Source: Solimonas sp. SE-A11
GTDB lineage: Bacteria > Pseudomonadota > Gammaproteobacteria > Nevskiales > Nevskiaceae
Length of the DNA stretch: 64,000 nt
Reading direction: 5' to 3'
Assembly: GCF_030345715.1 (NCBI RefSeq)
Contig: NZ_JAUASX010000010.1
Span: 62,001-126,000, forward strand
A model generated the notes under the pieces. It saw only the letters and a list, made by a program, of their open reading frames with translations. It made no database searches and was not told the origin of the DNA. Each line of letters begins with the position of its first letter. Positions within the stretch are counted from its first letter, which is position 1. Both the position numbers and the translations under genes were made by a program. Positions 10,405-12,330 of the stretch are shown piece by piece.

Positions 10405-11598
10405 TCAGGCCAGCCCGCGCTCCAGGTCGCGGATGATGTCCTCGATGTCCTCCAGGCCCACCGAGATGCGCAGCAGGCTCTCGGTGATGCCGGCCTGCTC
10501 ACGCGCCTCCGGCGTCACGCGCGCATGCGTGGTGGTCGCCGGGTGCGTGATCGTGCTGCGCGTATCGCCGAGATTGGCGGTGATCGACAACATCCTGGTG
10601 CTGTCCACCAGCTTCCAGGCCGCCTCGCGGCCGCCCTCCACTTCGAAGCTGACGATGCCGCCGAAGCCGCTCTGCTGCTTCTTGGCCAACTCGTGCTGCG
10701 GATGCTCCGGCAGGCCCGGGTAGAACACACGTTTCACGCGCGGCTGCGTCTTCAGCCACTGCGCCAGCTTCAGCGCGCTGTCGCTGTGCGCGCGCATGCG
10801 CAGAGCCAGCGTCTCCAGGCCCTTCAGGAAGACCCAGGCATTGAACGGCGACAGGCAGGGCCCGGCCGTCCTCATGTAGCTGTAGATGTCCTTGCCCACC
10901 CGCTGCGCATCGCCAACGATGGCGCCGCCGATACAGCGCCCCTGGCCGTCGATGTACTTGGTGCCCGAGTGGATCACGAAGTCGGCCCCCAGCTTCAGCG
11001 GCTGGCTCAGCACCGGCGTCAGGAAGCAGTTGTCCACTGCCAGCAGTGCGCCATGCGCATGGGCGATATCCGCCAGCGCGCGGATGTCCGCCAGCTCCAT
11101 CAGCGGGTTCGACGGCGTCTCCACGAAGAACAGCTTCGTGTTCGGCCGCACTGCCGCCTCCCAGGCCGCAGGATCGGTCGGGTCGACCCAGGTCGTCTCC
11201 AGGCCGAAGCGCGACAGGATGTTGTTGAACAGGTTGATGCTGGCGCCGAACAGCCCACGCGAGGCGAGGATATGGTCACCCGCCTTCAGCAGGGCCAGGC
11301 ACAGGGTCTGGATCGCCACCATGCCGCTGGCCGTGGCGATGCAGGCCTCCCCGCCCTCCAGCGCCGCCAGGCGCTTCTCGAAGGCCTCTACCGTGGGGTT
11401 GGAAAAGCGCGCATAGATATAGCCCGGCTGCTGCCCGCTGAACACCGCGGCAGCCTCGGCCGCGCTGCGGTACACGTGCGAGGAGGTCAGCGAGACCGAA
11501 GCGGAGTGCTCCATGTTCTCCGTGCGCGGCTCGGCGGCACGGATGCCCAGGGTGGCATAGCCCCATTCAGGGTCGAAATACTCGGTCTTGTCGGTCAC
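10405..11598 (-). CDS. metZ: O-succinylhomoserine sulfhydrylase
   Basis: 397-aa PLP enzyme of the Cys/Met metabolism family that makes homocysteine from O-succinylhomoserine and sulfide. The N-terminus VTDKTEYFDPEWGYATLGIR is typical of MetZ, and ATASGMVAIQT, NPTVEAFEKRLAALEGGEA and the PLP lysine motif HSGTKYIDGQGRC are present. The GTG start at 11598 has AGGAG 9 nt upstream; the longer open frame to 11712 runs through the riboswitch and is not coding. Expression is expected to be switched off by SAM through the leader at 11623-11732. MetB-type cystathionine gamma-synthase is the main alternative, but the purF-cvpA synteny supports metZ. Confidence 0.93.
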   Translation of the reverse strand: MTDKTEYFDPEWGYATLGIRAAEPRTENMEHSASVSLTSSHVYRSAAEAAAVFSGQQPGYIYARFSNPTVEAFEKRLAALEGGEACIATASGMVAIQTLCLALLKAGDHILASRGLFGASINLFNNILSRFGLETTWVDPTDPAAWEAAVRPNTKLFFVETPSNPLMELADIRALADIAHAHGALLAVDNCFLTPVLSQPLKLGADFVIHSGTKYIDGQGRCIGGAIVGDAQRVGKDIYSYMRTAGPCLSPFNAWVFLKGLETLALRMRAHSDSALKLAQWLKTQPRVKRVFYPGLPEHPQHELAKKQQSGFGGIVSFEVEGGREAAWKLVDSTRMLSITANLGDTRSTITHPATTTHARVTPEAREQAGITESLLRISVGLEDIEDIIRDLERGLA

Positions 11599-11622
11599 CG
11601 CCCTGCACTCCTGCGGGCAATG

Positions 11623-11655
11623 AAAAAGCCCGTCGGTCAAAAACCAAACGGGCTT
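11623..11655 (-). terminator. Attenuator terminator in the metZ leader, with competing antiterminator
   Basis: Reading the minus strand, AAGCCCG (11655-11649) can pair with CGGGCTT (11632-11626), followed by TTTC: an intrinsic terminator. The overlapping hairpin AAACGGG (11667-11661) with CCCGTTT (11652-11646) would use the same CCCG and act as antiterminator. The GGG of the antiterminator is also the 3' strand of the riboswitch pseudoknot, so ligand binding would favour termination. Confidence 0.65.
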
Positions 11656-11659
11656 CCAG

Positions 11660-11732
11660 CCCCGTTTAGCGATATTTATTGGGCTTTCCCGGGGGAAGGC
11701 CCGCGCCTGCAAGCTGGGATCAAAGTAGCGCG
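11660..11732 (-). ncRNA. SAM-II (SAM-alpha) type riboswitch
   Basis: On the minus strand P1 is CGCGC (11732-11728) with GCGCG (11706-11702). Its loop carries CTTTGATCCCAGCTTGCAG, and the 3' strand AATAAATATCGCTAAACGGGG follows; this resembles the SAM-II conserved core with UUGCA before P1 and AUAAAU then GCUAAA after it. Pseudoknot pairing is possible between loop CCC (11718-11716) and GGG (11663-11661), and between AGC (11715-11713) and GCT (11670-11668). An extra hairpin (GGCCTTCCC with GGGAAAGCC, 11701-11682) sits between P1 and the 3' strand. It lies directly upstream of metZ, a standard SAM-II target, and begins at the predicted transcription start. Confidence 0.82.
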
Positions 11733-11738
11733 CTGCGA

Positions 11739-11767
11739 ACTCTACTGCCTAACGGCGGCCTTCTCAA
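11739..11767 (-). promoter_or_regulatory. metZ: metZ promoter
   Basis: On the minus strand TTGAGA (11767-11762) and TAGAGT (11744-11739) are separated by exactly 17 nt. The predicted +1 is about 11732, the first base of riboswitch stem P1. The promoter begins 6 bp after the stop codon of the DUF2059 gene, making metZ its own transcription unit. Confidence 0.65.
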
Positions 11768-11772
11768 GCGGC

Positions 11773-12330
11773 TCAAGGCGCTGGTATGGGCGTCAGCGCG
11801 GGTGCCGGTGCCGCTGCCGGCTCCGAAAGCGACTGCTGCAGCTCGGCCTGCATCTCTTCGGCCAGGACCTGCATCTGCGGCTCCATCGAGCGCACCCATT
11901 CCAGGCTCAGCTGCATGGACTGCTGGGTGATCTGCGGCATCTTGCGCATCATCGAGCGGCCGCTGGCCGACTCGTAGAACGCGATGATGTCCTTCACCTC
12001 GCGGGCGCTGAGCTGGTCGGTATAGACCTTCGAGACGATACCGGTAACCTGGGCCACGCTCTGCTCGGAGAACATCAGCTGGGCCATGCGATCCATGTAC
12101 GTCTGCAGGATCGCCTGCTGGGGCGCGCTGAGCCTGCCACCGCCGGCAGCCAGCGCGGACTGGGTCATGCTCTCCCCGATCTGCTCGCGCATACCCGCGA
12201 ACATGCGGTCTACCTGCATCAGCTGCATCAGGCGGGCGACATCCTCGGGCTTGGCCCTGGCCTCCGCCGCCTGCGCACCGCCGCCGAGCGCCAGCGCCAG
12301 CAGCGCGGCAGCCAGCACCCCGGCCTTCAT
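11773..12330 (-). CDS. DUF2059 domain-containing exported protein
   Basis: 185-aa protein with a signal peptide ([21 protein letters not shown], cut near A21) and a helical DUF2059 domain ([15 protein letters not shown], then [20 protein letters not shown]). The C-terminal tail is Ala/Pro-rich. The start overlaps the purF stop by 4 nt (12327-12330), so it is translationally coupled to purF. Periplasmic location is expected; the function is unknown for the family. Confidence 0.8.

Follow-up and report, generated by a model that had tools for sequence, protein, structure and literature searches.

The window analysed here, a 64,000-nt stretch of the Solimonas sp. SE-A11 genome, carries on its minus strand, in this order, genes for a Colicin_V-type protein (PF02674), purF (TIGR01134, 508.4 bits) and a DUF2059 protein, then a leader region, metZ and a gene for a DUF455 protein. 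metZ was assigned through two family models, NF006003 (669.7 bits, cut-off 522) and TIGR01325 (592.8 bits, cut-off 510.05). At the head of the leader we found the promoter-like pair TTGAGA-17-TAGAGT (11767-11762 and 11744-11739), which agrees with the consensus at 9 of 12 positions and occurred once where 0.1 would be expected from shuffles of 401 bases; the 17-nt-spaced promoter proposed in an earlier sequence-only reading of this DNA is in this sense present. The features of the locus are as follows.

11762-11767, minus strand: -35-like hexamer TTGAGA, from a hexamer scan; all four genomes of the genus (L001-L004) keep TTGAG
11739-11744, minus strand: -10-like hexamer TAGAGT, 17 nt from the -35-like hexamer; P1 starts 7 nt beyond it
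11727-11732, minus strand: P1, 5' strand, CGCGCU (letters checked; P1 covaries in 149 relatives)
11713-11726, minus strand: L1 and 5' strand of P2a, ACUUUGAUCCCAGC; U10-U12 (11724-11722) are kept
11726 and 11725, minus strand: G8 changed to A and A9 changed to C, inside the L1 stretch (alignment-based numbering)
11709-11712, minus strand: UUGC, that is U20, U21, G22 and C23 of the SAM pocket, 5' side of P2b (roles from PMC3764141)
11702-11707, minus strand: P1, 3' strand, GGCGCG (letters checked)
11682-11701, minus strand: extra hairpin, 3 + 4 base pairs flanking a C.A mismatch, directly 3' of P1 and ahead of L3 proper
11671-11681, minus strand: L3 proper, CAAUAAAUAUC, 11 nt, the usual length among compact relatives
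11660-11670, minus strand: P2, 3' strand, including U44-A47 of the pocket (from sequence pairing)
11644-11669, minus strand: putative antiterminator hairpin, 9 bp with one G.U, pairing 11669-11661 with 11652-11644; its 7-bp core was recovered by a mechanical scan
11623-11655, minus strand: putative intrinsic terminator, 8 bp and an inner 3-bp stem, then a U tract; its outer arms were recovered by a mechanical scan
10405-11598, minus strand: metZ, O-succinylhomoserine sulfhydrylase, 397 aa, GTG start

The upstream part of the leader contains the pairs of an H-type pseudoknot with stems P1 and P2, both of which covary in the 149 relatives described below. P1 has six pairs, P2a consists of G11714-C11664 together with C11716-11718 and G11663-11661, and P2b consists of two pairs (11710-11709 with 11669-11670), with GCUAAA at 11670-11665. 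We assigned SAM-II position numbers by our own alignment to a SAM-II sequence. PMC3764141 lists U10-U12, U20, U21, G22, C23, G42, C43, U44 and A45-A47 as completely conserved in SAM-II, and all 13 of these pocket nucleotides are present in the window element, including every one reported to contact SAM (U11, U21, G22, U44 and A47).

The one departure seen in the core is the change of G8 and A9, and it is the main reason to doubt the affinity of the element. These two positions are altered in all four genomes of the genus, to A,C in the window and to A,C, C,U and C,C in its congeners, against near-invariance in the relatives, where all 149 sequences have A in alignment column 8 and 148 of them have G in column 7. 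Since G8 is A in the window, the G8-G42-C23 base triple of PMC3764141 cannot form as such; that triple is not one of those which the paper counts as fully conserved. Three different changes in four genomes are what might be expected if the genus, having lost G8 and A9, carried a SAM-II relative with a shifted ligand scope or affinity, binding SAM weakly or tolerating SAH. The SAM-contacting nucleotides are nonetheless kept, the gene is still metZ and the attenuator is intact, and we consider such a shift rather unlikely.

Beginning with a TTG at 11712, the leader also runs without a stop codon in the metZ frame up to the gene (11712-11599, minus strand), probably by chance. This frame is the one feature that speaks for attenuation by a leader peptide, or by another trans-acting factor, in place of a ligand-binding aptamer. 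Ahead of the metZ start, however, it has no methionine besides its own start, and the conserved letters of the leader are those of the SAM-II pocket, set in a pseudoknot that covaries in relatives, so that we give this explanation a very small probability.

Downstream of the putative SAM-II aptamer, two hairpins draw on overlapping letters. The antiterminator would pair CUAAACGGG (11669-11661) with CCCGUUUGG (11652-11644), and the terminator would pair AAGCCCGU (11655-11648) with ACGGGCUU (11633-11626), with UUUUU at 11627-11623. By their pairings and energies the two are mutually exclusive, and the computed energies are close, at -13.9 kcal/mol for the antiterminator and -14.8 kcal/mol for the terminator. 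The GGG at 11663-11661 is common to P2a and the antiterminator. Mutually exclusive hairpins and a shared GGG had both been read from the sequence before; with the letters checked and the energies computed, the pairings lie where they had been placed, and the same GGG serves in both. When the RNA was folded up to 11644 or 11634, the lowest-energy structure had P1, the extra hairpin and the antiterminator, and the unconstrained fold at full length had the terminator, with P1 replaced by other pairings. The folding program does not treat pseudoknots, and the ligand-dependent step is therefore one that we infer. The folding energy of the leader was not better than that of shuffles (z -1.09), and whole-leader folding energy, not being significant, was dropped as evidence. 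A mechanical terminator scan of the leader picked a different short hairpin (11662-11650) and not the terminator at 11655-11626.

Automatic detection of the two hairpins in other Nevskiales leaders proved to be a poor measure. Scanning 38 leaders returned antiterminators in 13 (P<=0.05), terminators in 31 and overlapping pairs in 7, and in the genus of the window the scan misread the leader by taking a T-run in the loop as the tail and reporting the antiterminator as a terminator. A regular expression applied to 45 stretches, the first L070 row among them being no leader, found the antiterminator in 20 and the terminator in 26, and it missed the terminator of the window itself. Since the antiterminator was recovered in 13 of 38 leaders by the one method and in 20 of 45 stretches by the other, the exact expression platform is apparently not uniform in Nevskiales.

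No Rfam model scored above its cut-off anywhere in the 64-kb window. RF00521, through which the earlier reading had expected the element to be recognisable, aligned to it only over model positions 10-42 of 79, with 14.1 bits (cut-off 36) and an E-value of 1.1, which is not significant. Since RF00521 alone is not significant and the leader folds like its shuffles, the SAM-II claim is carried by comparative evidence. Of 85 genomes of the order, 10 have an RF00521 match above the cut-off and 22 have one at E<=1e-3, with none of the four genomes of the window's genus among them. At 21 of these 22 loci, including all 10 above the cut-off, metZ lies at most about 140 nt downstream (the exception is L050), and many metZ leaders of Nevskiales show the SAM-II core. 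We built a model, R1, from 30 Nevskiales cores, that of the window included, whose E-values are rough; it matched 47 of the 85 genomes of the order and, in a class-wide sample of 369 genomes, at least 175. In the same 369 genomes RF00521 reached E<=1e-3 in 117 and passed its cut-off in 30, and its cut-off is for this reason better regarded as a search threshold than as a structural feature. The occurrence of SAM-II in a gammaproteobacterium, which had been thought notable, is consequently not unusual; PMC2704228 already places SAM-II in alpha-, beta- and gammaproteobacteria, and PMC2258182 names alphaproteobacteria, gammaproteobacteria and Bacteroidetes and reports terminators for alpha- and betaproteobacteria.

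A position ahead of methionine or SAM genes was found both in the window, with metZ, and in the relatives. Among the matches listed, 153 of 176 class loci contain metZ (120), metK (14), metN (11), metF (5) or metX (3); a MoxR-like gene was found in 2 of the remaining loci and none of the query genes in 21, these counts recording presence in the locus, with downstream position not checked individually. In genome G329 we observed at least seven SAM-II matches, and five of its loci (L145, L146, L157, L163 and L183) lack the queried methionine genes. In L126 (121-288) and L085 (about 1500-1670, read on the minus strand), from two genomes of one genus, two tandem SAM-II cores, the first followed by a terminator-like stretch, precede a MoxR-like AAA ATPase (PF07728, PF20030).

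Covariation was assessed in a set of compact relatives that excluded the genus of the window. Two of 146 class loci (L092, L211) could not be parsed and three with other L3 lengths (L199, L202, L233) were skipped; the 162 compact cores comprised 155 distinct sequences, and dropping four ambiguous ones (L130, L190, L227, L234) left 151, of which 149 were used. For L126 the parser used the second of the two tandem cores, and the long L016 was left out of the first (A1) alignment. The parser required UUU, UUGC, GCUAA and at least five of six P1 pairs, which fixes these letters from the outset and biases P1 towards pairing; P2a was not required, and GATTTG merely scored a bonus. In these 149 sequences the P1 and P2 pairs were formed in 91.2% of cells, compared with 87.1% when the letters were re-dealt, and both sides had changed in 88 cells, compared with 39.2; none of 500 shuffles was as high in either measure. 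Four pairs account for the 88 double changes, and the outer P1 pair and the P2a pair 20-59 together contribute 84. Shifting the pairing by 1-3 columns left only 20-47% paired. Unpaired cases numbered 34 at the outer P1 pair and 47 and 41 at two P2a pairs. Covariation of P1 and the pseudoknot in relatives, a comparison which the earlier reading had proposed as a check, was thus observed, and together with the complete pocket it upholds the claim of a SAM-II-like aptamer. When the 149 relatives were turned into a model, R2, and run over the 64-kb window, the best two of 13 matches were 11732-11702 (20.4 bits, E 3.7e-4) and 11701-11659 (17.5 bits, E 0.0024). These two matches adjoin one another and are split at the extra hairpin; the next match in the window had an E-value of 0.35.

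The extra stem lies at exactly the coordinates given for it earlier, 11682-11701, and we asked how often relatives carry such an insert. From 80 Nevskiales loci, many of them one place fetched twice, 68 were parsed into 45 distinct cores; the 12 unparsed were mostly metZ loci. An insert directly after the 3' strand of P1 was present in 21 of the 45 cores, with 22 compact, one shorter (L019) and one mis-parsed (L254). The inserts differ in sequence between genera yet fold as hairpins, the outer stem reaching P<=0.05 by shuffling in 16 of 20 (L016 and L254 left out; the folds defined the insert borders, a choice that favours pairing); the values above that threshold were 0.057 for the window, 0.077 for L002, 0.053 for L004 and 0.38 for L252. 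Judged from these sequences, the extra hairpin is a recurrent insertion at one site after P1, and it hides the element from the standard RF00521 model. Outside Nevskiales such inserts are rare in the class: among the class matches listed, L3 measures 11 nt in 129 of 144 parses and 11 or 12 nt in 141 of 144; since R1 and R2 score inserts down, the share of inserts is probably underestimated. By eye, inserts could be seen in several of 30 low-scoring genomes (for example L264, L278, L280 and L282).

Other departures from the compact form were noted as well. L016 (1324-1454) has a SAM-II core with an 88-nt L3 holding two long hairpins ahead of metZ, and the metZ locus L286 (about 1500-1580) has a core in which L1 instead of L3 seems enlarged. 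The metZ leaders L019 and L020, from one genus of the family, carry shortened SAM-II-like cores (GCCGATTTC ... GCTTGCGGGC ... GCTAAG) with a very short L3, which neither R1 nor RF00521 found.

On the opposite (plus) strand, the Rfam family RF02424 (Bp2_287) matches 11623-11760 over its full length with 25.9 bits, below its cut-off of 70. In 185 genomes of the class RF02424 matched 21 places in 20 genomes, none above the cut-off, and all 21 overlap SAM-II places on the opposite strand. Among 299 genomes of the phylum there were three matches, one of them above the cut-off (G680). We took the family of that genome to be Burkholderiaceae, since the name of the Rfam family refers to Burkholderia. 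In 100 genomes of this inferred Burkholderiaceae, 38 matched, 23 of them above the cut-off. Out of 39 places, 30 loci were fetched, and every one of them parses as a SAM-II core on the opposite strand, followed by metZ in the orientation of the core. P1 in these 30 cores reads GCGUC:GACGC in 25, ACGUC:GACGU in 4 and GCGUA:GACGC, one pair short, in 1, and L3 spans 15-35 nt, in many with just a 3-bp hairpin. A pattern for the GACGC form of P1 matched 1 of 369 class genomes, and L290 and L291, which score 28 bits with RF02424 outside the inferred Burkholderiaceae, gave no SAM-II parse.

The metX leaders of the inferred Burkholderiaceae fit the same layout. Among 30 genomes, of which 24 had matched RF02424 and 6 had not, 29 metX leaders could be parsed as SAM-II carrying a hairpin in L3. 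The five outer pairs of this hairpin were formed in 95.7% of cases over 28 distinct sequences, against 76.4% after re-dealing (0 of 1000 as high), at a tail length of 12; four tail lengths were tried, of which 11 gave 45% (40 of 1000) and 10 and 13 gave nothing. For the metZ inserts of the inferred Burkholderiaceae the figures were 84.7% against 78.7% (0 of 1000; 18 of 27 distinct inserts were long enough). R2 matched 65 of 66 loci, 60 from the inferred Burkholderiaceae and six from Nevskiales, with best E<=2.7e-4, the one miss being the metX locus L348. Rfam gave no RF00521 match at E<=0.5 in 10 metZ loci of the inferred Burkholderiaceae and six Nevskiales loci, and nothing whatever in 15 metX loci of the former. 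A search with MetX against plasmids returned 29 records, none recognised as Burkholderiaceae.

The full-length match would also suit a small RNA read from the plus strand, as RF02424 proposes, and a figure legend of PMC3521395 places the Bp2_287 candidate among verified sRNAs. Set against this are the score below the cut-off, the overlap at 21 of 21 class places and the reading of the SAM-II core towards metZ at 30 of 30 loci; moreover, PMC3521395 describes cDNA made with an oligo(dT) primer, and its authors themselves suggest a cis-acting methionine element. We think an opposite-strand small RNA highly improbable. These observations suggest that the element behind RF02424 is a SAM-II riboswitch and that the Rfam model represents the wrong strand, one and the same DNA element having been modelled as an sRNA.

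A SAM-II riboswitch with a hairpin in L3 can be placed among known systems as follows. It resembles RF00521 (SAM_alpha) in the H-type pseudoknot, the pocket nucleotides, the methionine gene downstream and the terminator platform, and differs by the 20-nt hairpin between P1 and L3 and by the changed G8 and A9. SAM-V (RF01826) gave no match in the Rfam search of the window leader. Its SAM core is nearly superimposable on that of SAM-II, whereas its control is translational and its P2a has just 2 bp, according to PMC6061858. "SAM-II long loops" (RF01726) is by name a SAM-II form with enlarged loops, but PMC2864571 lists it for Bacteroidetes and marine sequences, and neither the stretch 11500-11900 (E<=10) nor any of 31 loci (E<=0.5) matched it. 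A terminator is predicted with SAM-II for metZ of Sinorhizobium in PMC9373788. The closest description is the metXZ element of betaproteobacteria, for which the relevant section of PMC4239095 gives a pseudoknot of regions 1:4 and 2:6, an alternative fold and a terminator ahead of metX or metZ; the paper lists metXZ apart from SAM_alpha, and that section does not call it SAM-II. From topology and position we infer that what Leyn et al. 2014 described as the metXZ element belongs to the SAM-II riboswitches with an L3 hairpin. In the literature searched, which excluded most subscription papers, we found no paper that connects SAM-II to RF02424 or to the metXZ element, or that reports an L3 hairpin for SAM-II of Proteobacteria.

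On the comparative sequence evidence, the element ahead of metZ is very likely a SAM-II riboswitch that acts through a transcription attenuator. At low SAM, the P2 3' strand (11669-11661) would pair with 11652-11644 as the antiterminator, occupying the 5' arm of the terminator and allowing read-through into metZ. When SAM is plentiful, it would bind the L1/P2b triplex and P2 would close, holding 11669-11661 in the pseudoknot; the terminator 11655-11626 could then form, and transcription would stop near 11623. Lying outside the pocket, between P1 and L3, the extra hairpin is probably a passive or folding-assisting insertion stacked on P1. SAM binding, the direction of the switch and the role of the hairpin are our deductions, and by the same reasoning the SAM-II type, the attenuator, the extra stem and the shared GGG of the sequence-only reading would all stand. 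More tentatively, and with less than even probability, SAM-II with a hairpin in L3 may form a sizeable unrecognised structural subclass with repeated origins at a single site (in Nevskiales ahead of metZ, in Burkholderiaceae ahead of metZ and metX, and in scattered other cases), its hairpin stacked on P1, functional in tuning folding or affinity, and permissive for the drift of G8 and A9 in the genus of the window.

If the SAM-II assignment is true, it would provide a ligand and a mechanism for a beta-proteobacterial RNA element described in 2014 without one. It would also mean that, of 369 sampled genomes of the class, only 30 pass the RF00521 cut-off where R1 matches at least 175, and the genus of the window, lacking the G8 triple, would offer a naturally occurring form on which the tolerance of SAM-II could be tested.
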